From Gemmatimonadota bacterium (lineage in GTDB: Bacteria; Gemmatimonadota; Gemmatimonadetes; Gemmatimonadales; GWC2-71-9), in NCBI GenBank assembly GCA_003222155.1, contig QHUU01000113.1, positions 1 through 34,838 on the forward strand: a stretch of DNA of 34,838 bases, in the 5' to 3' direction. This document shows, one piece after another, positions 9,204-34,838 of the stretch (positions are counted from its first letter, which is position 1; every line of letters starts with the position of its first letter). Under the pieces are notes generated by a model. It was given only the letters and a program-made list of their open reading frames with translations. It ran no database searches and was not told the origin of the DNA. The translations under genes were made by a program, and so were the position numbers.

Positions 9204-9251
9204 GTCGAGTCCCCTCACTGAGAGTGTGGCGTTGTTGCTTGGACGGCGGCC

Positions 9252-9272: not shown

Positions 9273-9289
9273 TTTTCATCCCGCAACGC

Positions 9290-11500: not shown

Positions 11501-11511
11501 GCCGACCCTGG

Positions 11512-12756: not shown

Positions 12757-12757
12757 G

Positions 12758-12778
12758 GTGATAAACTGACCTTATCAC
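12758..12778 (-). promoter_or_regulatory. 21-base perfect palindrome at the enolase start (second copy of the susC operator)
   Basis: Read on the minus strand: arms GTGATAA and TTATCAC, a perfect inverted repeat, around the spacer GGTCAGT. The outer flanking bases also pair, making 8-bp arms. It is nearly the same as the susC-proximal site at 9252-9272. It covers the stop codon of the MFS gene (12777-12775) and ends one base before the enolase ATG (12756-12754). A bound protein here could block an internal promoter, act as a transcription roadblock inside the run, or affect translation start if the palindrome folds in RNA. No Shine-Dalgarno separate from the palindrome is visible. Confidence 0.6.
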
Positions 12779-14007: not shown

Positions 14008-14824
14008 CGCTGGACACGCTGAAGCCGCCGTCCACCGGGATGACGGCGCCGGTGACGAACGACGCCGCGTCGCTGCACAGCCATTGCACGGCGCCGACGA
14101 CCTCCTCGGGCCTGCCGAAGCGGCCCATCGGCGTGTGGGAGATGACGGCGCGGGCCCGCTCCGTGTGGCTGCCATCCGGCTTGAGGAGCACGGCGCGGTT
14201 CTGCTCCGTCACGAAGAACCCCGGTGCGACGGCGTTCACCCGCAGCCGGTCGCCGTAGCGCCGCGCCAGCTCGACGGCCAGCCAGCTCGTGATGCTCTCG
14301 ATCCCCGCTTTCGCGACGGAGTATCCCAGGACGCCGCTCAGGACGCGGCGCGCGGCCATCGAAGAGACGTTCACGATGCTGCCCGAGCCCTGGCGGCCCA
14401 TGGCCTCGCCGAACGCGAGCGCCGGGACGAGCGATCCGTGCAGGTTGAGCCGCAGCACCTCGTCGAACGCGTCGAGCGGCACATCGAAGACGGGCCTGTC
14501 GTCGCTGCGCGCGCGCGCGACATTGCCGCCGGCCGCGTTGACGAGAATGTCCACCCGGCCGCGGGCCTCGAGCACAGCGTCCCGGGCGGAGCGCACCTGT
14601 GCCTCGTCGAGGACGTCCGCGATGAGGGCGAGGGCGTCGCCCCCGCCGTCGCGGATCTCCTTGGCCTTCGCCTCGGCGGCAGCGCGTCGCCGGCCCAGGA
14701 TGGCGACGACCGCTCCCGCGTCTGCCAGGCCCGAGGCGATGGCGCCGCCGATCACCCCGTAGCCGCCCGTGACGACCGCGACGCGACCGGCGAGCCCGAA
14801 CGGCGACAGGGTGCCGCGCGCCAC
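14000..14824 (-). CDS. SDR oxidoreductase, D-mannonate oxidoreductase (fructuronate reductase) type
   Basis: Short-chain dehydrogenase, 274 aa, cytoplasmic. The GTG at 14824 follows the SGNH stop by 2 bases. The NAD(P)-binding motif is T19-G-G-Y-G-V-I-G26, with NAAGG at 96-100. The catalytic residues are Asn127, Ser154 or Ser155, Tyr168 and Lys172 (YSVAK). The loop around DGSHTERAR and HTPMGRFGRPEE is the signature of the SDR enzymes (YjmF/UxuB-analogue group) that interconvert D-fructuronate and D-mannonate. This fits glucuronate catabolism. The isomerase (UxaC) and mannonate dehydratase (UxuA) that would complete that route are not in the window and must be elsewhere if the route is used. 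A KduD-like role is the main alternative. Confidence 0.82.
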   Translation of the reverse strand: MARGTLSPFGLAGRVAVVTGGYGVIGGAIASGLADAGAVVAILGRRRAAAEAKAKEIRDGGGDALALIADVLDEAQVRSARDAVLEARGRVDILVNAAGGNVARARSDDRPVFDVPLDAFDEVLRLNLHGSLVPALAFGEAMGRQGSGSIVNVSSMAARRVLSGVLGYSVAKAGIESITSWLAVELARRYGDRLRVNAVAPGFFVTEQNRAVLLKPDGSHTERARAVISHTPMGRFGRPEEVVGAVQWLCSDAASFVTGAVIPVDGGFSVSSGV

Positions 14825-14826
14825 GG

Positions 14827-16032
14827 TCAGGGAATGAACAGGGCCAGGTCGATCGCGTCCGCCATCATGCGGTAGCCCGCCTCGTTGGGATGCAGGTGAT
14901 CGCCCGTGTCCGCCAGCGGCAAGAGACGAGAGGGCTCCGCGGGATCGCGCAGCACCGCGTCGAAGTCGATGACGGCATCGAACGCGCCGGCCTCGCGGAT
15001 CCAGCGGTTCACCCGCTGGCGCGCCGCTTCACGGTCGGGTCCATCATACTGCGATCCGCCGAACGGCGGGATCGTGGCACCGTAGACGCGCAGGCCGCGA
15101 TCGTGCCCGCGGGCGACGATCTCCCGATAGGCGGCCAGCAGGTTCTGCGCCACCGTGGCCGCTCTCCCCGGCTCCCGGGCGCCGCCGATGTCATTGACGC
15201 CTTCGAGCAGGATCACCCAGCGCGCTCCGTTTTGCCCCAGCACGTCGCGCTCGAGTCGCGACAGGGCGGTGGGACCGAGGCCGCCCTCGAGAACCGTGTT
15301 GCCACCGATGCCGGCGTTGAGCACGGCGACGTGCCGGGTGCGCGGATCGGCCAGCAGGCGGCGCGCGAGGTTGTCGGGCCAGCGGTCGTTCCGGTTGGTG
15401 CCGGAGCCACGGCCGTCGGTGATAGAGTTGCCCAGGGTGACGACGGCTCCTCCCGCCCCCTCCGCCGCCACGTCGAGACCGGCGAGCACGTACCAGTGAT
15501 CGGTCGTGACCGCCTCCGCCAGCTCGGGCGCGCTCGCCCAGCGGCCGGCCTGAAGATACGACGTGGTCCGTGACCCGGGATGGCCCGTGAGCGAGGCGGG
15601 CGCGGCGCCGCACTGGATGGTGATGGCGAGGTCGCCGAGCGCGGGGACGGCGTAGTCCAGCGGATCGGAGGTGACCACGGCGCCGGGAGCGATGCGCACC
15701 GAATCCGCTCCACCGAACGTCAGCCCCCGGTCGCTCGCGATCTCGATGGCGCTCGCTCCGCGCGAGCGGGCGACGTGGGCCGCGGTGATCGCGAGGGGGC
15801 CGTCGCCGAACGTATTCGAGAACCGCACGCGCAGGGTCTGCCCTCCGATGGACGTATGGATGACCTGGCGCACGGTGCTGCCCGCCAGCCCCGGGGCCGG
15901 CGGCATGTTGCGCGGCTCGACGCGCTGCTGAGCGGCCGCCCAGGTGCCGAGCCAGCGCACACGCGGCGTGGCGGACGGCGGCGCGCACGCGTTCGCGACG
16001 GCCGCGAACGCGGCTAAAGCCGCGACCCTCAT
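14827..16032 (-). CDS. SGNH/GDSL-family esterase, probable xylan-associated carbohydrate esterase
   Basis: Exported SGNH hydrolase of 401 aa. The N-terminus (MRVAALAAFAAVANAC) is a hydrophobic leader with a possible, non-ideal lipobox A13-N-A-C16. An N-terminal beta-rich region (about 25-190) precedes the hydrolase domain. Block I is LGNSITDG with Ser203, block II is AGIGGNTVL, block III is GVNDIGG, and block V is DHLHPN with Asp378 and His381. All four catalytic and oxyanion positions are therefore present. The gene lies between GH115 (15 bases) and the SDR, so removal of acetyl groups from xylan or xylo-oligosaccharides is the most likely job. This is inferred from context; the family also holds rhamnogalacturonan acetylesterases and lipases. 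Confidence 0.82.
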   Translation of the reverse strand: MRVAALAAFAAVANACAPPSATPRVRWLGTWAAAQQRVEPRNMPPAPGLAGSTVRQVIHTSIGGQTLRVRFSNTFGDGPLAITAAHVARSRGASAIEIASDRGLTFGGADSVRIAPGAVVTSDPLDYAVPALGDLAITIQCGAAPASLTGHPGSRTTSYLQAGRWASAPELAEAVTTDHWYVLAGLDVAAEGAGGAVVTLGNSITDGRGSGTNRNDRWPDNLARRLLADPRTRHVAVLNAGIGGNTVLEGGLGPTALSRLERDVLGQNGARWVILLEGVNDIGGAREPGRAATVAQNLLAAYREIVARGHDRGLRVYGATIPPFGGSQYDGPDREAARQRVNRWIREAGAFDAVIDFDAVLRDPAEPSRLLPLADTGDHLHPNEAGYRMMADAIDLALFIP

Positions 16033-16047
16033 GTCGTCAGCACGCCG

Positions 16048-18183
16048 TCATGGCGTCCGGACCGGCGCGCTGGATCCCCCCGCCGCGGTCGGCGGCCGGC
16101 CCAATCCGGGCATCGGCTGCAGCCGGGATCGGCCATCGCTCCCAATGAACGCCCGCAGCTCGACATACGCCCGGTGCGGGTTGTTGCGCTGCAGACCGGC
16201 CCGGATCCACGTCTCGCCGTACCAGCGATCGAACGGCGGGTATTCCGCGCGGGCAAAGTCGCTCTCGAGCTGTTCCAGCGGCGTGAGCGCTTCGCGGACG
16301 AGGCGCCACATGGCGCTCGAGTCCGGTGCCTGGAGGGCATCAGCCAGCTTCAGCGCGGCCCGCGTCTGCCGCTCGTCCACGCGCAGGCCCAGGTCGACGT
16401 CGACTGAGAAGAAGCGCTGCTGGGTCCGCGACATGGCGGCCCCGGCCTCCGCCTCCGCCGCCAGCGCCGTGTCGAGACGGCCGACGCGGGTCTGGAGCAC
16501 CGCCAGGGTGTCGGCGTTGAAGGGTGTGAACGGGCGGCCGGTCGCCCGCTGCCACAGGCGCTCGACGAGGTTCTGCACCGCTTCCGACGCATACCACAGC
16601 TTGTCGGGCGTGTCGAGCAGCGCATGGTACTCGTCGTAGGCCGCACGGGCTTGGACGGCGGCGGGGGTGAAATATTCCCGCGTCCACCATGCGACGAAAC
16701 GGCCCGCGGGATCGGGTGACGCGTACACCGCGGGCGCGTTCCATGTGATGTCCGCGATCATGCGGGCCCCCATGACGTAGTCGCGCAGCTCGGACACGTT
16801 GACGAGCATATATTCGGTCGCACCGGCCTTCACGATGCGCTGGAATTCTCCGGCGATCGTCGTGGGAGCCACGGTGTGGGTGGTCTGCTTGCTCAGATTC
16901 CCGCCGAGGTAGGCGAGGTGGTAGTACACGCCGTGCTTCCAGCGGCCCGGGTCGTCCGGGAGGCCACGCATGTGGCCGTCGTTGTCGTCCGGCCAGACGA
17001 TGATCACGTCGTCCGGCAGGCCGAAGGCCGCAGGAGCGCGGCGAAACAGGTCCAGCATCTCCGAGTACATCGTGAAGTGGAAGATCGGCGTGCGCCCCGG
17101 CGGCAGCGCGTTCCGCACCATGGCGGTCTGCAACCCGATCACCTCGCGGAATACGCGCCCCTTGTCGTCGTCGGTGGTCCCCTCGGGCCAGGTGTAGGCG
17201 CGGTCCGACGTGTTCCGCAGTCCCACCGGCCAAATCACGTCCAGGTCGTGGTTCTCCTCGACGCCGCCGCGCCAGAAGGTCAACAGGCCGTCCCGGTTGG
17301 TGAGCCAGTCGTAATCGGGTCGCACGCCGCGCTCGGCGGCAAGGTTGAACGTGGTGAGGCCGAATGGATTGGAGACGAGAATGTCGTAGTGATGCGAGGT
17401 GTAGTAGAGGCCCCAGTCGCTCGCGAGCTGCTGCACCTCGAAGCGGCGATGCACCCGCACGTACGGCGCCACCATGTTCATCCGCAGCCGCAGCGCGGTT
17501 TCGAAGTAGCGCCGGTACCAGACCAGGGGCACGTCGCCGGTCTGGAGCGGGTACCCTCTCGCGTCGAACGGACGCGGCAGGATGTCTTCGTCGTCGTGAA
17601 ACAAGCCGCGATAACGGAACGTGGGCGGTCCCTGCGCGAAGCGGGTCGCCTTGAGCACCAGCGGATCGCGGTGCTCCGGCACGTAGCCGGTCCAGAGATA
17701 GAGGGGGTCGACCCCCAGCCGCTCGGACAGGGTGTAAGCGGCGAACGCGGTGCCCCGCGGGTTCGACCCCACGAGCCAGATGGTCCCCGGCGTGGTGACG
17801 ATGCGATAGGACTCCCACTGACCGCGCAGCGCCGCGGCATCGATCGCGGCCGGCAGAGGCTCGTTGCCCAACGTGGCAAGCCGAATGCTCGTCTTGCCGG
17901 CCGTGGGCCGGGCCACAATGGGGGGTCGGTAGCCGCTGATCGCCTCGATGTCGCCCGCCAGAAACGTGGCTGCCTGGCGCACGCTCAGGTGCTCCGCGGC
18001 GCCGAGCACGATCTCCGCGCCGCTCTCGCCCGCCGCGAGCACCACGTCTCCGGCCGCGACAGGGCCGGTCCGGACCCATGACCCGCGCACGGGCGCGGCC
18101 CACGGGTTGCCCTGCGCGGCGCCGCCCGCCGCAACGAGCGAGCACGCGACCAGCACGGCAACGATTGCTCGGCATCGGTTCAT
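16048..18183 (-). CDS. GH115 xylan alpha-1,2-glucuronidase, exported
   Basis: Removes (4-O-methyl-)glucuronic acid from internal as well as terminal xylose units, so it acts on polymeric glucuronoxylan; 711 aa. I chose the ATG at 18183 because AGGA lies about 8 bases upstream; the ATG at 18198 has no such site. The leader could be cleaved near GAA-Q (about residue 23), or lipidated at Cys14 (L-V-A-C). GH115 hallmarks include LGVDPLYLWTGYVP, YRGLFHDDEDI, MNMVAPYVR, the WPDDNDGHMR motif from Trp397, and GVYYHLAYLGG. The protein is shorter than many GH115 members (about 800-1000 aa) and appears to lack an extra C-terminal accessory domain. It is first in the run GH115-SGNH-SDR-MFS-enolase-GH67. 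Confidence 0.92.
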   Translation of the reverse strand: MNRCRAIVAVLVACSLVAAGGAAQGNPWAAPVRGSWVRTGPVAAGDVVLAAGESGAEIVLGAAEHLSVRQAATFLAGDIEAISGYRPPIVARPTAGKTSIRLATLGNEPLPAAIDAAALRGQWESYRIVTTPGTIWLVGSNPRGTAFAAYTLSERLGVDPLYLWTGYVPEHRDPLVLKATRFAQGPPTFRYRGLFHDDEDILPRPFDARGYPLQTGDVPLVWYRRYFETALRLRMNMVAPYVRVHRRFEVQQLASDWGLYYTSHHYDILVSNPFGLTTFNLAAERGVRPDYDWLTNRDGLLTFWRGGVEENHDLDVIWPVGLRNTSDRAYTWPEGTTDDDKGRVFREVIGLQTAMVRNALPPGRTPIFHFTMYSEMLDLFRRAPAAFGLPDDVIIVWPDDNDGHMRGLPDDPGRWKHGVYYHLAYLGGNLSKQTTHTVAPTTIAGEFQRIVKAGATEYMLVNVSELRDYVMGARMIADITWNAPAVYASPDPAGRFVAWWTREYFTPAAVQARAAYDEYHALLDTPDKLWYASEAVQNLVERLWQRATGRPFTPFNADTLAVLQTRVGRLDTALAAEAEAGAAMSRTQQRFFSVDVDLGLRVDERQTRAALKLADALQAPDSSAMWRLVREALTPLEQLESDFARAEYPPFDRWYGETWIRAGLQRNNPHRAYVELRAFIGSDGRSRLQPMPGLGRPPTAAGGSSAPVRTP

Positions 18184-22805: not shown

Positions 22806-23978
22806 TCAGAGTTCCTCCGACGCCACCCGAGCCGCTTCCGCCAACACAGCGGCTCCGACGAAGATGCTCTCCTCGGCCGGATAAAACCGCGACGAGTGCG
22901 CGGGAATCGGGTCGCCCCCGGGCTCCCGTGCGCCGACCCTGAGAAAGCATCCGGGTATCCGCTCGAGGTACGACGCGAAGTCCTCGCCAGCCATGTTGAG
23001 GAACCCCAGCGGTACGATCGCGGCATCGCCGAGCACCGCGGCCGCCGCCCGGCGCGCCCAGCCGGCCGGCTCGGGCGGATTCACGAGCGGCGGAGGACCG
23101 AGCTCGATCGAGACCTCCGCCCGCAGCCGATAGACCGCTGCGCTCGATTCGGCGATGCGACGCACCTCGTCGCCCAGGAGCCGGCGGGTGTCGGCATCCG
23201 TGGCGCGCAGCGTCCCCGTGAGCGTGGCGCGGTCGGGGAGGACGTTCGGCGCCGAGCCCGCGTGCACGCTGCCGATGCTCACCACGGCGGGAGCCGCGGG
23301 ATTCACGCGGCGGGAGACGATGGTCTGAAGCGCCCCGACGAGCGCCGCCGCGCCGACGATCGGGTCCGCGGCCTCGTGGGGCCGGGCACCGTGCCCGCCA
23401 CTGCCGAGCAGCCGGATCTCGAAGCTGTCGGCCGACGCCGCGAGCGGCCCCTCCTGCGCCACCACCTGGCCTACGGCGAACCGCCGGTCTACGTGCGCGC
23501 CGAAGATCGCGGCCACGCCATCGAGCGCCCGCGAGTCGAGCACCGCCTGCGCCCCCCGTCCGGTCTCCTCGGCCGGCTGCAGCACGATCAGCACATCGCC
23601 GGCGGCGGGACACGCCGTCAGAAGGTGTGCCGCGCCCACTGCCCAGGTCGCGTGGACGTCGTGGCCGCAGGCGTGCATCACGCCCGGGTGCTCGGACGCG
23701 AACGGCAGGCCCGTCTCCTCCGAGATGGGCAACGCGTCGATGTCCCCCCGTACGGCGACCGGCGCCCGGGAAGAGTCGCGCCCGCGGATGCGGGCCACGA
23801 CGCCCGTGCCCGCCACCCGCTCGAGCCGGGCGGGCTCGACGCGCGCCAGCGCCACCTCGAGCGCTGCGGCGGTGCGCTCTTCCTTTCCCGACAGCTCCGG
23901 GTGGCGGTGCAAGTCGCGCCGCAGCTCGACCAGCGCGCCTCGCAACGCCGCAGGAAACAGCTCGGCGAGGCGGCTCAC
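22806..23978 (-). CDS. M20-family amidohydrolase (N-acyl-L-amino acid hydrolase type)
   Basis: Cytoplasmic metallo-amidohydrolase of 390 aa. The GTG at 23978 overlaps the racemase stop by 4 bases (GTGA). The longer in-frame opening up to 24224 only reads the racemase gene in another frame. The family motifs are LHRHPELSGKE (23-33), GDIDALPISEETG (78-90), HACGHDVH with Cys104, His106 and His109, PAEETGRGA with Glu137/Glu138, the dimerisation-domain GSGGHGARPH, and AGEDFASY near the end. This is the aminoacylase/hippurate-hydrolase/IAA-amino-acid-hydrolase branch. Downstream of a GNAT acyltransferase and an N-succinylamino acid racemase-type enzyme, its likely role is removing the N-acyl (succinyl) group from the L-isomer. 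No signal peptide is seen. Confidence 0.9.
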   Translation of the reverse strand: MSRLAELFPAALRGALVELRRDLHRHPELSGKEERTAAALEVALARVEPARLERVAGTGVVARIRGRDSSRAPVAVRGDIDALPISEETGLPFASEHPGVMHACGHDVHATWAVGAAHLLTACPAAGDVLIVLQPAEETGRGAQAVLDSRALDGVAAIFGAHVDRRFAVGQVVAQEGPLAASADSFEIRLLGSGGHGARPHEAADPIVGAAALVGALQTIVSRRVNPAAPAVVSIGSVHAGSAPNVLPDRATLTGTLRATDADTRRLLGDEVRRIAESSAAVYRLRAEVSIELGPPPLVNPPEPAGWARRAAAAVLGDAAIVPLGFLNMAGEDFASYLERIPGCFLRVGAREPGGDPIPAHSSRFYPAEESIFVGAAVLAEAARVASEEL

Positions 23979-25093
23979 GCGAGCACTTCGCTGCGCACCG
24001 TCAGGTTCTCCACGCGATCCATGTCGACCGCCACACCCATGCCCGGTGTTCGCGGCACGTGGACCATGCCGTCTCCGTCCATGGTCCACTCCGGCGTCAC
24101 GATGTCCCGCTCCCAATAGCGCGCGCTGGGCGACAGGTCGCCGGGGAGCGTGAAGTTGGGCAGCGAGGCGAGCGCCACGTTGTGTGCGCGCCCAATCCCG
24201 CTCTCCAGCATGCCGCCGCACCACACCGGGACGCCGTGCCGCCGGCAGAGATCGTGGATGGCGATGGACTCGGCGAACCCTCCGACGCGGCCGGGTTTGA
24301 TGTTCACGATGCGGCCGCTCTGGAGCGTGATCATGTCCTGCGCCCGCTCCACGTCGGTGATGGATTCATCCAGGCAGAGCGGTGTCTTGAGGAGCCGCTG
24401 CAGCGCGGCGTGGCGCACCAGGTCGTCGCGTCCCAGCGGCTGCTCGATCATCAGAAGGTCGAAGGCGTCGAGCCCTCGCAACCACTCGGCGTCGTCGAGC
24501 GTGTACGCGGAATTGGCGTCCACCATGAGGTGGACGTCCGCTCCGAGGGCCTCGCGCACGGCGCGCACGTAGGGCACGTCCGCACCCGGGGCGATTTTGA
24601 GCTTGATCTTCTTGTAGCCCTGCTGCACGGCCGCGCGGGCCCGCTGCACCAGCGCCTCGGGACTCGCCTGGAGCCCCAGCGAGATTCCGGTCACGATGCG
24701 CTCGCGAGTGCCGCCCAGCAGCGCCGCCAGCGGGCGGTCGCACAACCGGGCGGCCAGCTCCCAGCAGCCCATTTCCACGGCGGCCTTCGCCATGCGGTGC
24801 CCGCGAAAATCGCGCTCCAGGATGGCGTGCACGATCCCGGGCCCCTCGAGCTCCTGCTTGAGGATACGGGGCGCGACCCACGAGCGGATCGCCAACCACG
24901 CCGTGTCGATCGTTTCGTCGGAGTAGTTGGGCTGCTCGCCGGCGACGCATTCGGACCAGCCGGTAACGCCGTCGGAGGACGTCAACTCGAGCAGGCAGAT
25001 GCGGCGCTCCGTGCAGATCCCCGACGAGATCCGGAACGGCTCCTTGAGCGGGAGGCGGATCTCCCGCAGGGTGATGCGCTCGACGCGCAGCAT
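23975..25093 (-). CDS. N-succinylamino acid racemase / o-succinylbenzoate synthase-type enolase
   Basis: Enolase-superfamily protein of 372 aa, muconate-lactonising subgroup. The ATG at 25093 overlaps the GNAT stop by one base (TGATG). The catalytic residues are Lys164 and Lys166 (KIKLK) and Lys266 (NIKPGRVGG). The metal ligands are Asp192 (VDANSAY), Glu217 (IEQPL) and Asp242 (LDES). The spacing matches the Amycolatopsis NSAR/OSBS (K163, D189, E214, D239, K263) with a constant offset of three. The C-terminal CGGMLESGIGRAHN motif is also typical. OSBS and NSAR activities share this fold. No menaquinone genes flank it, while a GNAT and an M20 hydrolase do, so racemisation of N-acyl (N-succinyl) amino acids is the more likely role. 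A dipeptide epimerase would usually carry a different C-terminal substrate motif. Confidence 0.9.
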   Translation of the reverse strand: MLRVERITLREIRLPLKEPFRISSGICTERRICLLELTSSDGVTGWSECVAGEQPNYSDETIDTAWLAIRSWVAPRILKQELEGPGIVHAILERDFRGHRMAKAAVEMGCWELAARLCDRPLAALLGGTRERIVTGISLGLQASPEALVQRARAAVQQGYKKIKLKIAPGADVPYVRAVREALGADVHLMVDANSAYTLDDAEWLRGLDAFDLLMIEQPLGRDDLVRHAALQRLLKTPLCLDESITDVERAQDMITLQSGRIVNIKPGRVGGFAESIAIHDLCRRHGVPVWCGGMLESGIGRAHNVALASLPNFTLPGDLSPSARYWERDIVTPEWTMDGDGMVHVPRTPGMGVAVDMDRVENLTVRSEVLA

Positions 25094-25950
25094 CAGGTTT
25101 TTCGGGACAGGATGTAATAGCCGCGCGCGGCCTGGGCATCCCGATAGAAGCCGGCCACGTGGTACCCCTGCTCGAGCGCCCAGGTGAACGCCGCGCGGGT
25201 GGTGGTGCGCCACCGGCCGGCCAGGTCGAGCGACGCGTCCTGCACTGTGTGGATCTCGAGCGGGATCTCGACCCGCAGGGGCGCCCGGGCCGGTGCGGCC
25301 CGGAAGCGCGGTGTGGTGGGGATGCCGTCGCCGTCGGAGGCGTTCAGGACTCTGGCCGTGCTCGTCGCCTCGCGTCGGTCGGGCGTGTCCTGCGCACCGA
25401 TATCCCAGGCGACGATGAAACGATCGGTGCCGAGCCCCCGGTGCAGGGCGCTGTCGGTGTCGCTGCCGTACATGTCGATCACGTATTCCGTCACGCGCAC
25501 GCCCAGCCGGTTGAGGTTGAAGTGCGCGTTGCGGGCGACGAGCGGGTCGAAGGTCCAGTAGACCGTGCCCACGCCGAGTTGCAGCAGCGCCTCGCGCTGA
25601 AACTGCTTGAGCCGGCGGCCGATGCCGTGATCGCGCAGCTCGGGGCGGACGGCGAGCATGTCGGACCAGTGGACCAACCGCCCGTGCTCGACGCCCGTGA
25701 TGCCGAACACGAAGCCGACCAGCCGCTCCCGGGCGTCGAAGGCGCCCGCGCTCACGCCGCCCAGGCGCTGGCTGACCTTGAGGATAGCGGCGGGAACGCG
25801 CTCGCTGAAGTCGGCGCCCCACGTCTCGTGCTGCAGGGCGACGCAGGCGACGAAGTCGTCGCGGGTGTGGAGGTGCCGGATGTGCAGCCCGTCGGGTGGA
25901 GCGTGGCTGGGAGCGGCGGCCGGCGGCGCGACGGGCTCGTAGCGGTTCAT
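25093..25950 (-). CDS. GNAT-superfamily N-acyltransferase (COG3375-like), candidate D-amino acid N-succinyltransferase
   Basis: GNAT protein of 285 aa. The acyltransferase domain (about residues 22-170) has the acyl-CoA pyrophosphate loop in VRPELRDHGIGRRLKQF (Arg107 to Gly111). The following WTFDPLVARNAHFNLNRLGV is typical of the conserved GNAT group found beside NSAR genes. A C-terminal region (about 175-285) contains IPLEIHTVQ and a closing RGYYIL. I prefer the ATG at 25950; an ATG at 26031 would add 27 residues but lies within the TATAAT hexamer that may be its promoter. It is first in an overlapping three-gene operon with the racemase and the M20 hydrolase. In Geobacillus the same trio was described as converting D- to L-amino acids via N-succinyl intermediates, which suggests this function. 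The acyl donor and the D-specificity are inferred. Confidence 0.85.
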   Translation of the reverse strand: MNRYEPVAPPAAAPSHAPPDGLHIRHLHTRDDFVACVALQHETWGADFSERVPAAILKVSQRLGGVSAGAFDARERLVGFVFGITGVEHGRLVHWSDMLAVRPELRDHGIGRRLKQFQREALLQLGVGTVYWTFDPLVARNAHFNLNRLGVRVTEYVIDMYGSDTDSALHRGLGTDRFIVAWDIGAQDTPDRREATSTARVLNASDGDGIPTTPRFRAAPARAPLRVEIPLEIHTVQDASLDLAGRWRTTTRAAFTWALEQGYHVAGFYRDAQAARGYYILSRKT

Positions 25951-26061
25951 TCGGGTATACGACAAGGTATACAAGGAGCCCACCCGCGGCAACATTCCCG
26001 CCGCTTGCGCTGCACACGACTTTGTACACATTATAGCCCGCCCCTCGCGCGAAGCGATCTC
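25951..26061. promoter_or_regulatory. Divergent control region between the GNAT operon and dacB
   Basis: This 111-base region separates two divergent gene sets. On the minus strand a perfect TATAAT (26035-26030) is a candidate -10 for the GNAT operon, though no good -35 is seen at the usual distance. Immediately before the GNAT start, the palindromic hexamer GTATAC occurs twice inside a direct repeat, GGTATAC at 25954-25960 and 25966-25972, spaced 12 bases start to start. The repeat could bind a regulator or form part of the leader. A plus-strand promoter for dacB is not clear. Confidence 0.4.
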
Positions 26062-27639
26062 ATGCAACGGCCGACCGTGCCCGTGCTGTGGCTGCTCACC
26101 CTCTGTTCGAGCAGTCTGCCCGCCCAAGCCGGGACCGCTCCCCAGACGCTCGCGGACCGGATCCAGCAGATCGTCACTCGCCCCGAATACCGCCGCTCGA
26201 GCTTTGGCGTCGCGTTCTACGATCTGGACGCCAAGACGGCGGTGTTCACCCTCAATGCCGACAAGCTGTTCGTCCCCGGCTCCACGACCAAGCTGCTCAC
26301 CGAAGGGACCGGCCTCGAGCTGCTGGGCCCCGACTACCGGTTCCACACCCGCGTCTATCGTACCGGCCCGATCCGCAAGGACGGCACGCTGGCCGGCGAC
26401 CTGGTGCTGGTGGCGAGCGGCGACCCCAACCTCTCCGGCCGTATCCGTCCCGACGGCACCCTCGCTTTCGAGAACCAGGATCACGCCTACGACGGCAGTC
26501 CCGACACGCGCGCGGTGCCGGGCGACCCGCTGCTCGTGATCCACGAGCTGGCCGATCAGATCGCGGCGCGACACATCACGCGCGTGTCGGGGCGCGTCAT
26601 CATCGACATCAGCCTGTTCGCCGAGGGCGACCGCGAGCTCGGCACCGGCGTCGTCATCTCGCCCGTGGCCGTGAACGACAACCTCGTGGACGTGACCGTC
26701 GCTCCCGGCGCCGCCCCGGGCGACGCGGTCGTGCTGACGCCGTCTCCGGTCACTGCGTACGTGCGCTTCGTGAACCAGGCGACCACGGCGGCGTCCGACT
26801 CGCAGCCGGAGATCCACTGGGCCTCGGACAGCGCCGGTCCCGACGGCTCGCACACGGTCACCGTGGCCGGTCGCATGCCCGCGGGCAAGCCGGCATGGCT
26901 CTTCAGCTACGCCGTGCCGCAACCCAGCCGGTTCGCCGAGGTCGTGCTGGTGGAGGCGCTGCATGCACGTGGCGTCCGCGTGGCGGTGAGCCCGCTCGGC
27001 GTGCGGCACGACTTCACAGCGCTGGCGTCGGCCTACACGCCCGACAACCTGGTGGCCGAGCACGTGTCGCCGCCGCTCACCGAGGAGGCGAAGGTCACGT
27101 TGAAAGTGAGCCAGAACCTGCACGCCTCGATGATGCCCTTCATTCTGGGAGGACTGCTCGCGCACGACGGCTCGGCCAAGGCGGGGTTCAAGCTCGAGCA
27201 CGACATGCTCGAGCGGGCCGGGCTCGACTTGAGCGGGGCGTCGCAGGGCGATGGGGCCGGCGGTGCGGCGCACTTCGCGCCCGAGTTCATGGTGCGCTTT
27301 CTCGCTTACATGGCCACGCGCCCGTATTTCCCGGCCTACCTCGCGGCGCTTCCGGTGCTGGGCCGCGACGGCACGCTCTGGAAGGTGCAGCCCAATTCGC
27401 CGGCCGCCGGTCATGTGCAGGCCAAGACGGGCACGTACGTAGAGGTGGACCATCTGAACCGCGCGCTGATGGTGAACGGGAAGGGGCTCGCCGGCTACGT
27501 GACGACCGCGGGGGGCCGGCGTCTAGCGTTCGCCGTGTACGCGAACAACGTCCCGGTCCCGTCGGACCCCGGCGCGATCGAGCGGACCATCGCGCAGGCG
27601 GTGGGTGAGATCGCGGCGGCGGCGTACGACGCGCCTTGA
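26062..27639 (+). CDS. dacB: D-Ala-D-Ala carboxypeptidase/endopeptidase, PBP4 (S13) type
   Basis: Periplasmic penicillin-binding peptidase of 525 aa that cleaves the terminal D-Ala or D,D-cross-links of peptidoglycan stem peptides. The leader MQRPTVPVLWLLTLCSSSLPAQA is a Sec signal ending near residue 22. All three active-site motifs are in place: Ser74-T-T-Lys77 (PGSTTKLLT), S350-Q-N352 and K455-T-G. A long insertion between the first and second motif is characteristic of family S13, and the length matches the family. The gene is divergent from the GNAT-racemase-M20 operon and sits 46 bases before the second susC. Its product, free D-alanine, would be a natural substrate for the D-to-L conversion operon; this link is my inference. 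Confidence 0.93.
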   Translation: MQRPTVPVLWLLTLCSSSLPAQAGTAPQTLADRIQQIVTRPEYRRSSFGVAFYDLDAKTAVFTLNADKLFVPGSTTKLLTEGTGLELLGPDYRFHTRVYRTGPIRKDGTLAGDLVLVASGDPNLSGRIRPDGTLAFENQDHAYDGSPDTRAVPGDPLLVIHELADQIAARHITRVSGRVIIDISLFAEGDRELGTGVVISPVAVNDNLVDVTVAPGAAPGDAVVLTPSPVTAYVRFVNQATTAASDSQPEIHWASDSAGPDGSHTVTVAGRMPAGKPAWLFSYAVPQPSRFAEVVLVEALHARGVRVAVSPLGVRHDFTALASAYTPDNLVAEHVSPPLTEEAKVTLKVSQNLHASMMPFILGGLLAHDGSAKAGFKLEHDMLERAGLDLSGASQGDGAGGAAHFAPEFMVRFLAYMATRPYFPAYLAALPVLGRDGTLWKVQPNSPAAGHVQAKTGTYVEVDHLNRALMVNGKGLAGYVTTAGGRRLAFAVYANNVPVPSDPGAIERTIAQAVGEIAAAAYDAP

Positions 27640-27685: not shown

Positions 27686-30600
27686 ATGCGATCCCTGACG
27701 AGCTCTCTCCTCCAGCTGATCCTTCTGGTCGGCGTGGCCCCCGCCGCCCGGGCGCTCCAACAACAACCGGAGCAGGGATTCGTGGCAGGTACGGTAATCG
27801 CCGAGGGTACGCTGCGCCCGCTCCCGGGCGTTCAGGTGAGTGCCGGGGCGGGTCATGTGGCGATCACCGACGCGGCCGGCCGGTTTCGCATCACCGGGCT
27901 CGCGGGGGGCCAGGTGACGCTCACGGCACGCAGCATCGGCTATGTACCCCTGACGCGCACCGTGGCTGTGGGCGACACGCGCGTCAGCTTCACTTTGAAC
28001 GAAGCCCCGATCGAGCTCAACGCGGTGGTGGTCACCGGTACCGCCGGAGTTCAGACGAAGCGGGCCATCGGGAATGTGGTGCCCACGATCAACGCGGGCG
28101 ACGTGAGCGCCGTCGCTCCGGTCTCGGACATCCAGTCGTTGATCAACGGCCGGGCACCCGGCGTCGAGATCCTGCCGGGCAGCGGCCAGGCCGGCACGGG
28201 CTCCAAGGTCCGAGTGCGCGGCATCTCGAGCCTGTCGCTGTCGAACAACCCGTTGCTCTACGTGGATGGCGTTCGCGTGGATAACAACCAGAGCACCGGT
28301 CCGACCGTGCAGGCGTTCGGCTCGCAGGTCGTTTCCCGGCTCAACGACTACGATCTGTCGGACGTCCAGAAGATCGAGATCATCGAGGGCCCCGCCGCCG
28401 CCACGCTGTACGGCACGGAGGCCGCGAGCGGCGTGATCTCGATCATCACGAAGCGAGGCTCCGTGGGCGCTCCCAGCTGGGAGCTGACCGCCAAGCAGGG
28501 ATCCGAGTGGTTCATGAACCCGCAAGGCCGCTTCCCGCTGAACTACTGGATGGACACCCTCGGCACGGTCCACTCGATCGACTACAACGCGCTGGTGCAG
28601 CAGAACGGCGGTCCGATTTTCTCGAACGGCTACACCCAGGGCTACTCGCTCAACGTGAGCGGCGGCACGCCGGTGGTGCGCTACTACGTGTCGGGGAATT
28701 TCGATCGCCACAACGGCGTCGAGCCCAACAACATCTTCCGCCGCTACGGGGGCCGGGCCAACGTGAGCGTGGCGCCGAACGACAAGATCGACTTCTCGCT
28801 CAACGTGGGCTACAACAAGGCGCGCACCGACCTGAGTCTCGAGGCGGGCGGCGGCGGCGCGATGTGGGAGACGCTCTTCTCCACGCCGCAGAACCTGGGG
28901 ACGACGGCCAAGGGCTTCCGCGACTACCCGCCCGGCATCAACTACGTCGCCATCTCCGACTGGCAGGACGTGAACCGCTTCACCGGCAGCCTGGAGATTC
29001 ACCACCGGCCCACGTCATGGTTCACACAGCGGCTGGTCGTGGGCACGGACGTGACCCACGAGGTGAACGTGGAGTTCGTGCCGCACCTGGTGGACAGCCT
29101 CAAGCAGTACTTCGATCCCACCACGGCGTCGGGCTACCGTGATCAGGGTGGGCGTGATCCCACCACGAGCACGGTGGACTACAACGCGTCCGTGAACCTG
29201 CCGGTGACCGGAGGGCTGCGCTCGATCACGTCGGCCGGCGGCCAGTACTACCACTGGCTGCGCGATTCCACCGAGACCTATGGCGAGAACTTCCCGGCGT
29301 CGGGGCTCTCCGCCGTGTCGTCCGCGGCGCGCACCGTGGCCGGCGAGGACCTGATCGAGAACAACACGCTGGGCGGGTACGTGCAGGAGCAGCTCGCCTG
29401 GAACGACCGCCTGTTCGTCACCGGAGCAGTGCGCGTCGACCGCAACAGCGCCTTCGGCACCAAGGTGCGCCACCAGGTCTATCCCAAGGTGAGCGGCAGC
29501 TGGGTGATCAGCGAAGAGCCGTGGTGGCATTTCCATTGGCTCGACCAGGTGCGGCTGCGTGGGGCGTTCGGCGAATCGGGCAAGCAGCCCGACAACTTCG
29601 CAGCGCTGCAGACCTACGCCGCGGCCACCGGCCCGGGCGATCGCGGCGTGCTGACGCCGCAATTCGTCGGCAACGCAAACCTCGGCCCTGAGGTAAGCCG
29701 CGGCACCGAGCTGGGCTTCGAGGCCAGCGCCCTGGACGATCGCGTCGGCGTCGACTTCACGTACTATCGCCAGGCGACGCACGACGCGATCCTGGCGAAG
29801 GACGTCCCGCCCTCCGGTGGCTTCCCCAACACGGTGTTCGTTAACGCCGGCACGGTCCGGAACCTCGGGATCGAGCTCCACGTGCGGGGCCAGCCGGTGC
29901 GGACGCCCGACCTCACCTGGGACCTGAACTGGAACATCGCCACCAACGCCAACAAGGTGCTCGACCTGGGTCAGCCGGCGGGCGATTGCGCGAGCGACAG
30001 CCTGGCGCAGGTCCACAAGGACTGCAGCATCGTGATCGGGAGTCAGCAGCACCGCGTGGGCTATCCCGCCGCATCGTTCTTCCGCGAGAAGGTGGTGAGC
30101 GCTCAGCTCGACCCGAACGGCAAAGCCATCCTCTCGACGGTGATGTGCGACGGCGGTCCGGCGTTCCACAACCAGCCCGTGCCCTGCTACGACGCGTCCG
30201 GCAACGTGATCGCGCCGCGCGTGTTTCTGGGCCAGTCGACGCCCAAGACCGAGGGCGGGATCAGCACGACCCTCACATTCCGCGGCCGGCTGCGGCTGTA
30301 CGCGCTGGTCGACTACAAGTACGGCTTCAAGAAGACCGACAACAACCTGCGCGCCCGCTGCCAGGTGTTCGAGACCTGCCTCGAGAACATCTACCCGCAG
30401 CGCTACGACCCCGCGCTCATCGGCGGGATGCAGTCGCCCGGCTCGCTCGTCAACTGGGTGTACAACGACGCCGGCTATGCCAAGCTGCGCGAGCTGTCGC
30501 TGAGCTACCAGCTCCCGGACGAGCTGGCCGCGCACTTCGGCGCGCGCCGCGCCTCCGTCTCGCTCGCGGGGCGGAACCTACACACCTGGACCAGCTGGAC

Positions 30601-30718
30601 GGGGCTCGACCCCGAGGCGCTGTTCCTCGGGACCGGCTTCGGGCAGCACACGGTGTTCGAGCAGGATCAATTGCCTCAGCTCGCGCAGTTCGTCGCGACG
30701 ATCAACGTGGGCTTCTGA
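27686..30718 (+). CDS. SusC/RagA-family TonB-dependent transporter, second copy
   Basis: Outer-membrane TonB-linked transporter of 1010 aa. The ATG at 27686 has GGAG 7 bases upstream; the in-frame ATG at 27671 has none. The signal peptide ends near ARA-L (about residue 23). A carboxypeptidase-regulatory-like domain (about 30-110, GTVIAEGTLRPLPGVQV) is followed by the plug (VVVTGTAGVQTKRAIG, INGRAPGVEI, VRVRGISSLSLSNNPLLYVDGVRV, EIIEGPAAATLYGTEAASGV). The barrel ends in TINVGF, an aromatic terminus. The plug motifs differ clearly from those of the xylan-locus SusC, so this is not a recent duplicate. Flanking genes encode dacB, a serine hydrolase and a deacylase-like protein, with no glycosidases. 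Peptides or amidated compounds are therefore likelier cargo than sugars, as for RagAB-type systems. Confidence 0.94.
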   Translation: MRSLTSSLLQLILLVGVAPAARALQQQPEQGFVAGTVIAEGTLRPLPGVQVSAGAGHVAITDAAGRFRITGLAGGQVTLTARSIGYVPLTRTVAVGDTRVSFTLNEAPIELNAVVVTGTAGVQTKRAIGNVVPTINAGDVSAVAPVSDIQSLINGRAPGVEILPGSGQAGTGSKVRVRGISSLSLSNNPLLYVDGVRVDNNQSTGPTVQAFGSQVVSRLNDYDLSDVQKIEIIEGPAAATLYGTEAASGVISIITKRGSVGAPSWELTAKQGSEWFMNPQGRFPLNYWMDTLGTVHSIDYNALVQQNGGPIFSNGYTQGYSLNVSGGTPVVRYYVSGNFDRHNGVEPNNIFRRYGGRANVSVAPNDKIDFSLNVGYNKARTDLSLEAGGGGAMWETLFSTPQNLGTTAKGFRDYPPGINYVAISDWQDVNRFTGSLEIHHRPTSWFTQRLVVGTDVTHEVNVEFVPHLVDSLKQYFDPTTASGYRDQGGRDPTTSTVDYNASVNLPVTGGLRSITSAGGQYYHWLRDSTETYGENFPASGLSAVSSAARTVAGEDLIENNTLGGYVQEQLAWNDRLFVTGAVRVDRNSAFGTKVRHQVYPKVSGSWVISEEPWWHFHWLDQVRLRGAFGESGKQPDNFAALQTYAAATGPGDRGVLTPQFVGNANLGPEVSRGTELGFEASALDDRVGVDFTYYRQATHDAILAKDVPPSGGFPNTVFVNAGTVRNLGIELHVRGQPVRTPDLTWDLNWNIATNANKVLDLGQPAGDCASDSLAQVHKDCSIVIGSQQHRVGYPAASFFREKVVSAQLDPNGKAILSTVMCDGGPAFHNQPVPCYDASGNVIAPRVFLGQSTPKTEGGISTTLTFRGRLRLYALVDYKYGFKKTDNNLRARCQVFETCLENIYPQRYDPALIGGMQSPGSLVNWVYNDAGYAKLRELSLSYQLPDELAAHFGARRASVSLAGRNLHTWTSWTGLDPEALFLGTGFGQHTVFEQDQLPQLAQFVATINVGF

Positions 30719-30762: not shown

Positions 30763-32070
30763 ATGAGACTCAAGATCATCGCGACCCTGCTGCTGGGAGC
30801 GGTGCTCGCCTGTGATTCGCTCCTCAACGTCCAGAGCCCGAGCCGCGTGCCGGCGTCGGTGTTGGACGACCCAGCGAACGCGGAGCTCGCCGTGAACGGG
30901 GCGCAGGCGGACTTCGAATGCGCGCTCGCGAGCTACGCCGCCCTCGGCGGCATGCTGGCGGGCGAGCTGGAAGATGCCACGCTCTCGGCGGGGCGCTGGG
31001 ACTACGATCGGCGAACCGTTACCTCCGGCGACGCCTACGGGCCCAATCAGTGCAACGATGGCAGCTTCCTGGGCCTCTATACGCCCCTCTCGGTCGCGCG
31101 CTTCCAGGCTGACAACGCGACACACCACCTCCAGGGTTGGACCGACGCGCAGGTGAGCAACCGGCACGACCTCATCGCCAAGGCGAGCGCGTACGGTGGC
31201 TACAGCCTGACGCTCCTGGGCGAAGGGTTCTGCTCGGCGGCCATCGACGTGGGCCCGCAGCTCATGCCGCCGCAGCTGCTCGATTCCGCCGAGAACCGGT
31301 TCTCGACGGCCATCACCGAGGCCGCCACAGCCAGCGACTCGCGCACCCTGAACCTGGCGAGGGTGGGACGCGCCCGCGTGCGCCTGGCGCTGGGCGACAC
31401 GGTTGGCGCGCTGGCCGATGCGCAGCTCGTTCCCGCGGCCTTCGAGTACGACGCGACCTATTCCTCCGCCAACGCGCGGCGCGAGAACTTCGTGTACCAG
31501 CAGATCAACAAGAGCCCGTTCAACACGATCGCGGTGCCGTACCGGAAGTTCATGTACGTGTTCGCGGACACCGTCGTTCCCGGTAAGGTCGACAGCGTGC
31601 CCGATCCGAGAGTCGCGGTGCGGTTCGATTCGGCCACCACGATGTTCGACAACCGCCACGGGCAGTGGGTGCAGCTCAAGTACGCGAACATCGGCGCGCC
31701 GATTCGCCTCGCCACCGGGACGGAGGCGCAGCTCCTCATCGCGGAGATCCAAGGCGGCCCGACGGCGGTGGGTATCATCAATACCCTGCACGCCGCGGCG
31801 GGCCTGCCGCCGTTCCGGGGCACGGACCCCGACAGCATCCGGCGGCAGGTGATCTACGAGCGTCGGGCCGAGTTCTTTTTGGACGGACACCACCTGGCCG
31901 ACGTGAACCGGTTCCAGCTCACGCTGTTTCCGCCGGCGGGCACACCCTATCCGGTGGACGCCGCGAATCCCAAGGGCGGCTTCTATGGGACCGGGACGCG
32001 CTTCCCGCTCCCCGACAAAGAGCGTTTCAACAATCCCAACATTCCCTCGACTGTCAACCCGGGGTGCTGA
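30763..32070 (+). CDS. SusD/RagB-like lipoprotein, second copy
   Basis: Lipoprotein of 435 aa, partner of the SusC just upstream (44-base gap). The ATG at 30763 is preferred because it leads directly into MRLKIIATLLLGAVLAC with the lipobox V14-L-A-C17. An ATG at 30718, overlapping the susC stop as TGATG, would add 15 hydrophilic residues before it. The N-terminus of the mature form (LLNVQSPSRVPASVLDDP) and the C-terminal QVIYERRAEFFLDGHHLADVNRF motif are typical of the shorter SusD/RagB class common in high-GC SusCD phyla. At 435 aa it is much smaller than the 638-aa SusD of the xylan locus, in line with a different ligand. The ligand is not known. Confidence 0.88.
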   Translation: MRLKIIATLLLGAVLACDSLLNVQSPSRVPASVLDDPANAELAVNGAQADFECALASYAALGGMLAGELEDATLSAGRWDYDRRTVTSGDAYGPNQCNDGSFLGLYTPLSVARFQADNATHHLQGWTDAQVSNRHDLIAKASAYGGYSLTLLGEGFCSAAIDVGPQLMPPQLLDSAENRFSTAITEAATASDSRTLNLARVGRARVRLALGDTVGALADAQLVPAAFEYDATYSSANARRENFVYQQINKSPFNTIAVPYRKFMYVFADTVVPGKVDSVPDPRVAVRFDSATTMFDNRHGQWVQLKYANIGAPIRLATGTEAQLLIAEIQGGPTAVGIINTLHAAAGLPPFRGTDPDSIRRQVIYERRAEFFLDGHHLADVNRFQLTLFPPAGTPYPVDAANPKGGFYGTGTRFPLPDKERFNNPNIPSTVNPGC

Positions 32071-32087
32071 TCGTGAGCCACGCGCGC

Positions 32088-33614
32088 ATGAAGTCCTTAC
32101 TGATCGTAGTGGGCGTGATGGCCGCGGCTGCGCCCGTTCCCGCCGCCCGTGCGCAGGACGCCCCGCTCCGCGGCTTCGACGCCTACGTCGAGCAGGCGCT
32201 GCGCGACTGGCGCGTGCCGGGCGTGGCGATCGCCGTCGTGCGCAACGACTCCGTGGTGTTCGTGAAGGGCTACGGCGTGCGCGAGTTGGGCAAACCGGCC
32301 CGCGTGGACGCGCACACGCTCTTCGCCATCGGCTCCACCACGAAGGCGTTCACGGCGGCCGCGCTCGCGATGCTGGTCGATTCCGGAAAGCTCGCGTGGG
32401 ACGATCCCGTCACGAAGCACCTCGCGTGGCTCGAGCTCGCCGATCCGTACGTCACCCGGGAGCTGACGGTGCGCGACCTCCTGACGCATCGCAGCGGCCT
32501 GCCGCGCGGCGACCTCGTGTGGTACGGCTCGTCGTTCGACCGGTCCGAGGTGCTGCACCGCGTGCGCTACTTGAAGCCGCGCTGGAGTTTCCGCTCGAAC
32601 TACGGCTATCAGAACATCATGTTCCTCGCGGCGGGCGAGGTGGTCGCAGCGGCGAGCGGCGTCTCGTGGGGCGACTTCCTGAAGGCCCGCATCTTCACCC
32701 CGCTCGGCATGACCGGAACCAACACGAGCGTCACGGCGCTGGCGGGCGAGGGCGACGTCGCGATGCCGCACAAGAAGATCGACGACACCGTTCGCGTCAT
32801 CCCGTGGCGCAACATCGACAACGTGGGGCCCGCCGGCTCCATCAACTCGAGCGTGGCGGACCTGTCCCAGTGGCTCCGACTGCAGCTGGGCGGCGGGACC
32901 TTTCGCGGCCGGCGGCTCGTGAGCGACTCGACCGTGGAAGAGATGCACACGCCCCAGATGGTGATCCGCATGAACAAGGACGCCCGCGAGATCTTCCCCG
33001 ACACCCATTTCCTCGCCTACGGGCTCGGCTGGTTGCTGCGGGACTACCATGGCAAAATGTTCGTAGGTCATGGCGGTGCGATCGACGGGATGCGGGCCGA
33101 GATCGGGTTGGTTCCCGAGGCGCGCGTCGGCGCGGTGGTGCTCTGCAACCTGGACGGCACGAGCTTCCCCGCCGCCATCTTGTACCGCGCGCTCGACGCG
33201 TATCTCGGCGCGCCGCCGCGCGACTGGAGCGCGGTGCTGCTCGCCGCGGAGCGTAAGGCCGAAGCGCACGGGGACTCGGTCGACAAGGCGTTCGAGGCAA
33301 AACGGGTACGGGACACGCATCCGTCCTTGCCGCTCGAGCGCTACGCCGGCAACTACGTGGACAGCCTGTACGGAACGGTGGAAATCGCGGAGCAGGGAGA
33401 CCGGCTCGTGGCCCGGATGGGTCCGGCGTTCACCGGCGACCTGACCCACTGGCACTTCGACACTTTCAAGGTTACGTGGCGCGACCGCGGGCTCGGCACC
33501 AGCTACCTCACGTTCAATGTCGACGCCGATGGCAAAGTCGGCTCCGTCGAGGTGCGGGAGGTGGGCGAGTTCAAGCGGTCGGCGCCACCGCCCACCCGCC
33601 AGGCGGGACGGTAA
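32088..33614 (+). CDS. S12 serine hydrolase (beta-lactamase / D-aminopeptidase fold) with C-terminal DUF3471-like domain
   Basis: Exported penicillin-recognising serine hydrolase of 508 aa. The ATG at 32088 starts a Sec signal (MKSLLIVVGVMAAAAPVPAARA-Q); a GTG at 32073 is an alternative. The motifs are Ser83-T-T-Lys86 (GSTTKAFT), Tyr175-Q-Asn177 (NYGYQNIMFLAAGE) and the HGG of GHGGAIDG in place of KTG. The catalytic domain spans about 27-390. A beta-rich DUF3471-like tail (about 415-500) begins LPLERYAGNYVDSLYG. Family S12 includes class C beta-lactamases, D-Ala-D-Ala carboxypeptidases, D-aminopeptidases and esterases. The full set of motifs plus neighbours (dacB, D-aminoacylase-like gene, SusCD) favours a D-amino-acid peptidase or amidase. 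Esterase activity remains possible. It lies 17 bases after susD and 2 before the next gene. Confidence 0.87.
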   Translation: MKSLLIVVGVMAAAAPVPAARAQDAPLRGFDAYVEQALRDWRVPGVAIAVVRNDSVVFVKGYGVRELGKPARVDAHTLFAIGSTTKAFTAAALAMLVDSGKLAWDDPVTKHLAWLELADPYVTRELTVRDLLTHRSGLPRGDLVWYGSSFDRSEVLHRVRYLKPRWSFRSNYGYQNIMFLAAGEVVAAASGVSWGDFLKARIFTPLGMTGTNTSVTALAGEGDVAMPHKKIDDTVRVIPWRNIDNVGPAGSINSSVADLSQWLRLQLGGGTFRGRRLVSDSTVEEMHTPQMVIRMNKDAREIFPDTHFLAYGLGWLLRDYHGKMFVGHGGAIDGMRAEIGLVPEARVGAVVLCNLDGTSFPAAILYRALDAYLGAPPRDWSAVLLAAERKAEAHGDSVDKAFEAKRVRDTHPSLPLERYAGNYVDSLYGTVEIAEQGDRLVARMGPAFTGDLTHWHFDTFKVTWRDRGLGTSYLTFNVDADGKVGSVEVREVGEFKRSAPPPTRQAGR

Positions 33615-33616: not shown

Positions 33617-34838
33617 ATGCGGCTGCATCGTTTGCTGCCGCTGGTCCTGCTCGTCGGCGGGTGCGCGCACGCGCCCGGGGTCGCCACGCCCACGCCTGCC
33701 GCCGGCCCGTTCGACGTGGTGATCGAGGGCGGCCGCGTGGTGGACGGGACGGGCAACCCGTGGTTCTACGGCGACGTGGCCATCCAGGGCGACCGCATCG
33801 CGCGCATCGCGCCGCCCGGCCTGCTGGCGCAGGCGGCGGCGCGGCGCCGCATCGACGCGCACGGCTTGGTGGTGGCGCCCGGGATCATCGACATCCAGGC
33901 GCAGTCGGACGCGGAGCTGTTGCGGGGCGACAGCCGTGTGATCAGCATGGTGACGCAGGGTGTGACCACGATGATCATGGGTGAGGGCGAGACACCCGCG
34001 CCGGCGAACGACAAGATCATGGCGATGTACCGCGTGACCGATACCGCCGAGGCGCGGCTGTTCCGCTCGTTCGCCGGCGCGCAGGGGTTCGCGCGCTGGC
34101 TCGACGCGATGGCGCGGCACGGCGCGTCGGTCAACTTCGGCTCGTTCCTCGGCGCGGGCACGGTGCGCGCCTACGCGAAGGCGCAGGCCGAGGGACCGGC
34201 GAGCCCCGCGGAGCTCGACACGATGCGCGCGGTGGTGCGCCGGGCGATGGCAGACGGCGCGTTCGGCGTGGCGAGTGCGCTGATCTATCCGCCGGGGAGC
34301 TACGCCGCCACCTCCGAGCTGGTGGAGGAAGCGAAGGCGATGGCGCCCTACGGCGGGGTCTACATCACGCACATGCGCTCGGAGGGCGACCGGCTGCTCG
34401 AGGCGGTGGACGAGGCCCTCACGATCGGGCGCGAGGGCGGGGTGCCGGTCGAGATCTATCATCTCAAGGCCGCGGGGGTGAAGAACTGGCCCAAGGCGCG
34501 GCTGGTCGTGGCCAAGATCGATTCGGCGCGCGCCGCGGGGCAGGACGTGACGGCCGACCAGTACGCCTACACGGCGGGGGCGAACGGCTTCTCGTCCTGC
34601 ATTCCCCCCGCGGCGCACGCCGACGGCAAGCTGCTCGAGCGGCTGCGCGACCCGGCCACACGCGTCGCGCTCGCGGCCGAGATGGTGCGGCCCGACGCGG
34701 CGTGGGAGAACCTGTGCTTGAGCGCCAGTCCCGAGGGCGTGGAGGTGGTGGGGTTCAAGGTCGACTCGCTCAAGCGGTACGAAGGACAGCGGTTGAGCCA
34801 GATCGCCCGTACTCTGGGGAAGACCTGGCCCGAGACCA
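33617..34838 (+). CDS. N-acyl-D-amino-acid deacylase-like amidohydrolase, lipoprotein (partial at right edge)
   Basis: Amidohydrolase-superfamily lipoprotein; 407 codons are visible and the gene runs past the window. The ATG at 33617 follows the S12 stop by 2 bases. The lipobox is V13-G-G-C16. The D-aminoacylase layout is clear: a small N-terminal beta domain (FDVVIEGGRVVDGTG), APGIIDI at the start of the barrel, GVTTMIMGEGE, GAFGVASALIYPPGSY, YITHMRSEGD and VEIYHLKAAG. The metal-binding HxH that normally follows PG-[FI]-[IV]-D reads Q94-A-Q96. Later His residues (THMR, YHLK) are kept. It may therefore use a different metal arrangement or be inactive. The usual role is hydrolysis of N-acyl-D-amino acids or N-terminal D-residues; whether that holds here is uncertain. 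Confidence 0.85.
   Translation, partial: MRLHRLLPLVLLVGGCAHAPGVATPTPAAGPFDVVIEGGRVVDGTGNPWFYGDVAIQGDRIARIAPPGLLAQAAARRRIDAHGLVVAPGIIDIQAQSDAELLRGDSRVISMVTQGVTTMIMGEGETPAPANDKIMAMYRVTDTAEARLFRSFAGAQGFARWLDAMARHGASVNFGSFLGAGTVRAYAKAQAEGPASPAELDTMRAVVRRAMADGAFGVASALIYPPGSYAATSELVEEAKAMAPYGGVYITHMRSEGDRLLEAVDEALTIGREGGVPVEIYHLKAAGVKNWPKARLVVAKIDSARAAGQDVTADQYAYTAGANGFSSCIPPAAHADGKLLERLRDPATRVALAAEMVRPDAAWENLCLSASPEGVEVVGFKVDSLKRYEGQRLSQIARTLGKTWPET

Follow-up and report, generated by a model that had tools for sequence, protein, structure and literature searches.

Is an operon for the conversion of D-amino acids to their L-forms coupled, through a common control region, to enzymes that supply its substrates? 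This question is raised by a locus of a soil Gemmatimonadota bacterium, in which overlapping genes for a GNAT acyltransferase, a racemase of the enolase superfamily and an M20 amidohydrolase are divergent from dacB for a D-Ala-D-Ala carboxypeptidase. Cell-wall D-amino acids of bacteria are abundant in soil, and their catabolism is common among soil bacteria (PMC4912152). The source genome (3.45 Mb) is assembled in 130 contigs, and the window, by which we mean the whole stretch of 34,838 nucleotides analysed here, is one whole contig; it gave no Rfam matches and no tRNAs. Among named genomes, full matches were best in Gemmatimonadota metagenome assemblies. Positions 721-18156 of the window hold a glucuronoxylan-type utilisation locus with GH3, GH10, SusD, a SusC-sized gene beside SusD (6138-9164), GH67, MR_MLE, MFS, SDR, GDSL and GH115.

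The core operon

The three core genes are as follows.

22806-23978, minus strand: M20D amidohydrolase, candidate N-acyl-L-amino acid deacylase (TIGR01891, 321.6 bits vs cut-off 153.75)
23975-25093, minus strand: NSAR/OSBS-family racemase of the enolase superfamily (TIGR01928, 330.4 bits vs cut-off 200.65)
25093-25950, minus strand: GNAT acyltransferase with C-terminal extension, candidate D-amino acid N-acyltransferase (PF00583, 21.3 bits vs cut-off 20.7)

The overlaps are 4 bases between M20 and NSAR and 1 base between NSAR and GNAT, just as the earlier note on this DNA had given them in proposing an operon. The NSAR operon of Geobacillus kaustophilus reportedly encodes a GNAT N-succinyltransferase, NSAR and an L-desuccinylase, for which an irreversible D-to-L route is said to have been proposed. 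Here GNAT, NSAR and M20 are likewise encoded together.

The racemase consists of the N- and C-terminal MR_MLE domains, and its top matches among solved structures are the N-acylamino acid racemases of Deinococcus and Amycolatopsis. All the catalytic and metal-binding residues that the earlier note had listed were found: K164, K166, D192 and E217 are invariant in the alignment, and D242 and K266 nearly so. The protein has the sequence family, the catalytic lysine pair and the Mg ligands of the NSAR/OSBS family. The arginine three residues past the second catalytic lysine, which we take to correspond to R266 of Amycolatopsis NSAR, is present as the nearly invariant R269, though it does not discriminate because a 40% paralogue carries it too. 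A second enolase-superfamily gene in the window (11512-12756) has a remote MR_MLE match and 26% identity to the racemase.

In the M20 protein, the family search detected Peptidase_M20 and its dimerisation domain; the Cys/His (MHACGHD), Glu (QPAEE) and His motifs are all found, and the nearest solved chain is YxeP (1ysj). The Pfam match of the GNAT protein is weak, and its gene has an alternative start at 25995. No close solved relative of it was found by sequence. Its AF2 model (pLDDT 89) consists of a GNAT fold and the C-terminal extension; the fold search with this model yielded the GNAT domain only, with the acetyltransferase PA4866 among the top matches. PA4866 acylates amino-acid-like substrates.

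Because its score exceeds the cut-off of the curated menC model TIGR01928, automatic annotation would call the racemase MenC, the o-succinylbenzoate synthase of menaquinone synthesis; its neighbours would then be incidental. We rejected this role as extremely improbable. In the same genome, MenB and MenD, the two other men products that were searched, are below their cut-offs, which leaves the MenD-C-E-B pathway incomplete, whereas the futalosine-route protein MqnC exceeds its own, and the racemase gene sits with GNAT and M20 instead of men genes. The 40% paralogue is encoded on another contig (L006:10819-11946), outside any men cluster seen. The 17 paralogue loci that we fetched share a recurrent neighbourhood of their own, where the gene adjoins one for a 387-aa protein without Pfam match.

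The divergent operon

On the opposite strand, dacB is the first of at least five genes that run to the contig end.

26062-27639, plus strand: dacB, S13/PBP4-type D-Ala-D-Ala carboxypeptidase (PF02113, 198.3 bits; TIGR00666, 152.9 vs 107.8)
27686-30718, plus strand: SusC/RagA TonB-linked outer-membrane transporter (TIGR04056, 428.8 vs 368.25 bits)
30763-32070, plus strand: SusD-like lipoprotein (PF07980, 22.5 bits, slightly below the cut-off of 23.1)
32064-33614, plus strand: class C beta-lactamase/D-aminopeptidase-like serine hydrolase, Bla-like (PF00144, 234.6 bits)
33617-34838, plus strand: D-aminoacylase-like amidohydrolase with lipoprotein-type signal, cut by the contig end (homologue match)

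DacB carries STTK (74), SQN (350) and KTG (455), the SxxK, SxN and KTG motifs of the S13 family. The genes are closely packed: susC starts 46 bases past dacB and susD 44 bases past susC, the Bla-like gene overlaps susD by 7 bases, and 2 bases separate it from the amidohydrolase gene. A homologue of the SusD-like protein in locus L148 scores 35.7 with PF07980. Judging from the N-termini, DacB and the Bla-like hydrolase are probably exported and the amidohydrolase is of export type, while the core proteins have no such N-termini.

The operon probably continues beyond the window. The final 464 bases of the window overlap with another contig of this genome, C49 (98.3% identity), on which the C-terminal part of the amidohydrolase precedes a gene for a GntR/FCD protein (1834-2523 of C49). 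Moreover, a single contig of G003 spans SusC to GntR, and one contig of G001 ends with Bla–amidohydrolase–GntR. On the basis of these contigs, the order dacB–susC–susD–bla–amidohydrolase–gntR is probable, although in this genome we infer the step from the amidohydrolase to gntR across contigs with some strain difference. The earlier note was right about dacB as the divergent gene but had missed the genes that come after it, and it was too narrow in naming dacB the partner, as it is one of several partner genes.

Among solved structures, the full-length homologue of the amidohydrolase is nearest to D-aminoacylase 1rjp (3.7e-73) and both His motifs are retained, but the position of the Cys ligand (NCG in D-aminoacylase) aligns with a G-E-x-x-T motif. 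Cys/His/His is the metal ligand set of subtype V D-aminoacylases, and a sister group of them acts on an amino sugar acid (PMC12017989). D-specificity of the amidohydrolase remains putative, because the Cys metal ligand is missing. This altered metal site, together with beta-lactamase-like and CocE-type hydrolases in some related loci, would fit a system that acts mainly on different N-acylated or D-residue compounds (nonribosomal peptides or N-acyl amino acids, for example), with D-Ala being minor. Since DacB and the M15 dipeptidase found in relatives are D-Ala-D-Ala families, we regard this as unlikely, though it is the strongest of the alternatives.

Linkage of dacB in related genomes

We searched 101 related genomes including that of the window (G000). 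This type of DacB is accessory, being present in 14/101 genomes, and dacB adjoins the trio in five of these 14 (5/101 searched), so that the adjacency is a minority arrangement. The divergent arrangement with GNAT occurs in four genomes that belong to two genera (G000, G001, G003 and, in the other genus, G048); the G003 gene is on a short contig holding part of GNAT, and the G048 gene, missed by the gene finder, was placed by protein search. In G081 of another family, dacB, GNAT, NSAR and M20 all run in one direction, and 4 bases are shared both by dacB and GNAT and by GNAT and NSAR. A single strand of this genome encodes, in some 17 kb, homologues of the amidohydrolase, SusC, SusD, Bla, DacB, GNAT, NSAR and M20, together with a Tricorn-like protein. 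Thus, the genome search proposed in the earlier note found that dacB adjacency is not unique to this genome.

An NSAR ortholog is present in 12/14 genomes with this DacB type vs 33/87 others (p = 0.001, to which kinship contributes; all p-values in this study are optimistic because the loci and genomes are phylogenetically related). In a quick tree, the linked DacBs group with that of G022, which is itself unlinked. In loci L148 and L149, the neighbour of this DacB is a protein that matches the M15 representative, and SusC/SusD and a permease are encoded there too; in L150, this DacB is near an M55 protein.

DacB as a PBP4-type enzyme could also serve recycling or remodelling of the cell's own peptidoglycan instead of scavenging. 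We consider this improbable, as this DacB type is accessory and SusC/SusD point to uptake from outside.

The control region and a candidate GntR operator

The gap between the two operons holds the following elements.

25951-26061, no strand: shared divergent control region with blocks conserved in G000, G001, G003 and G048
25967-25974, minus strand: TTGTATAC operator-like site, with a second GTATAC at 25955-25960
26022-26035, minus strand: TATAAT (26030-26035) and GTGTACAA (26022-26029), promoter- and operator-like, conserved in four genomes

The conserved parts of the GNAT–dacB gap in these four genomes include TTGTATACCTT, with GTATAC after it, and ATAATGTGTACAA. TATAAT and GTGTACAA are kept in all of them except for the first base of TATAAT in G048. 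The conservation of this intergenic region across two genera bears out the earlier proposal that the trio and dacB share a control region.

The motif recurs in front of GNAT genes elsewhere. TTGTATAC or its complement is present in 19/101 upstream regions of GNAT vs about 0.1 expected; for the full palindrome TTGTATACAA, the count is 12 vs 0.0 expected. The generic FCD pattern TNGTNNNACNA was not enriched (0/101 GNAT upstream regions). The motif goes together with the regulator: a GntR gene is found in 16/19 loci with the motif vs 6/80 without it (p = 5e-11). In addition, 28/101 genomes have a GntR ortholog, and 21 of these 28 have an NSAR ortholog (p = 2.5e-4). In this genome there are five TTGTATAC sites, near the count of 4 in the backwards control; four of them are in coding sequence and the only intergenic one is in the GNAT–dacB gap. 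Co-occurrence and the conserved footprint suggest that the GntR/FCD protein probably recognises TTGTATAC-type sites in the GNAT–dacB gap and regulates the two operons.

Conservation of the core and its partners

Racemase matches at 58-100% identity occur in about 45 genomes and are distinct from a separate class at 34-43% (101 genomes). Partner families, named by Pfam and NCBIfam, were chosen on a first set of 43 fetched ortholog loci and then tested on a second set from a separate GNAT-alignment scan (80 loci, 70 of them new, other phyla included), with 57 windows (40 control and 17 paralogue) for comparison. Counts for low-GC loci are minimum values, since the gene finder was trained on the GC-rich window. 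NSAR is the same-strand neighbour of GNAT in 37/43 ortholog loci and 41/70 further loci, and M20 homologues were detected in 30/43 ortholog loci; GNAT–NSAR–M20 is a conserved unit.

D-residue-handling families (D-aminoacylase-like, M15, M55, DacB and D-Cys-desulfhydrase-like, pooled) accompany the core in 19/43 (p = 9e-8) and 14/70 loci (p = 0.001) vs 1/57 comparison windows, and D-aminoacylase-like genes in 12/43 (p = 1.3e-4) and 11/70 (p = 0.006) vs 1/57. GntR genes (11/43 and 11/70) and permeases (6/43 and 7/70) were each absent from the 57 windows. A chance neighbourhood was rejected with these windows. In G022, an amino acid permease gene is inserted between NSAR and GNAT with 4-base overlaps. 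On the other hand, M15, M55 and DacB jointly were found in 7/43 loci (p = 0.002), whereas in the second set the number falls to 2/70 (p = 0.30). Such strictly D-Ala-type partners are few, which counts against the model, as does the detection of M20 in only 30/43 ortholog loci.

The frequency of amidohydrolase genes with the core (12/43 loci), some without M20 alongside, might suggest the opposite sense, namely that L-amino acids are N-acylated and racemised, after which the D-aminoacylase-like enzyme frees the D-form, so that D-amino acids are made. This sense is very improbable: the N-terminus of the amidohydrolase is export-type and those of the core proteins are not, the M15, M55 and DacB partners release D-amino acids, and M20 in 30/43 loci points to an L-product.

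In eight loci (L213, L217, L219 and L231 among them), a gene upstream of GNAT–NSAR belongs to another M20 subfamily, which is glutamate carboxypeptidase-like, and perhaps replaces the usual M20. GNAT homologues in L211, L225 and L226 are near a DadA-like D-amino acid dehydrogenase, with no NSAR detected there. M19 membrane dipeptidase genes are near the core in L189, L210 and L239 (Pfam was run on the L189 protein). In L078 (11502-13913), a class C beta-lactamase-like domain is fused to an M15 D-Ala-D-Ala dipeptidase domain. L156 (2-897) has two NSAR fragments on opposite strands at a short contig end, probably an assembly fault.

A proposed scavenging island

In this soil bacterium, the D-to-L trio seems to form the inner half of a regulated island for the scavenging of D-amino acids. 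We consider it likely that the island is GntR-controlled and built around a Geobacillus-type D-to-L route, its activities and substrates being those suggested by the protein families. SusC/SusD would import oligomers or peptides with D-residues. In the periplasm, exported DacB, the Bla-like hydrolase and the amidohydrolase may free D-amino acids such as D-Ala, as their families and N-termini suggest, and an amino acid permease, encoded in or beside the core operon in some relatives, would carry them into the cell. In the cytoplasm, GNAT would N-acylate the D-amino acid, probably with succinyl-CoA, NSAR would racemise the N-acyl amino acid, and M20 would hydrolyse the N-acyl-L form, which would make the conversion irreversible. 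GntR/FCD, encoded at the end of the dacB-side operon, would act on TTGTATAC-type sites and govern both operons. D-Ala alone would not need such a route, because the genome encodes an alanine racemase.

A wider proposal, which we put forward tentatively, is that of a recurrent uptake system for D-amino-acid peptides resembling polysaccharide utilisation loci, where interchangeable exported D-residue-releasing enzymes and SusC/SusD may feed GNAT–NSAR–M20 under one GntR operator and the amidohydrolase has an altered metal site.

The island would show how a largely uncultured phylum obtains and converts D-amino acids. It would also assign a testable role to a racemase labelled as a menaquinone enzyme by a curated model, provide a candidate regulator with its candidate operator, and draw attention to an amidohydrolase family with a substrate to find.

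Comparison with known systems

A D-to-L route of this kind is known from Geobacillus, while its linkage with supply enzymes and a regulator appears to be new: in the literature searched, mostly without subscription papers, we found no description of a D-to-L core coupled to D-residue supply or of this operator paired with GntR. The Geobacillus operon and the window share the three enzyme families in one operon and the proposed irreversible D-to-L logic. Unlike Geobacillus, the window couples them to predicted exported D-residue-releasing enzymes, SusC/SusD and a GntR regulator, and the acyl group here is putative. PMC7431475 cites the use of this NSAR and of the L-succinylase. The nearest solved relatives of the window racemase are the Deinococcus and Amycolatopsis enzymes.

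The DgcN-DgcA pathway acylates, racemises with an enolase-superfamily enzyme and deacylates, a logic common to it and the window. However, the acyltransferase of the window is a GNAT, and its racemase scored 119 bits against the DgcA N-acetyl-D-Glu racemase model NF042940, far from the cut-off of 400. In PMC12363236, dgcN is described as the key gene for a pathway that racemises acidic D-amino acids irreversibly. Finally, the island has a SusC/SusD pair, exported hydrolases and a linked regulator in common with polysaccharide utilisation loci, but its hydrolases belong to peptidase and amidase families and not to glycosidases.
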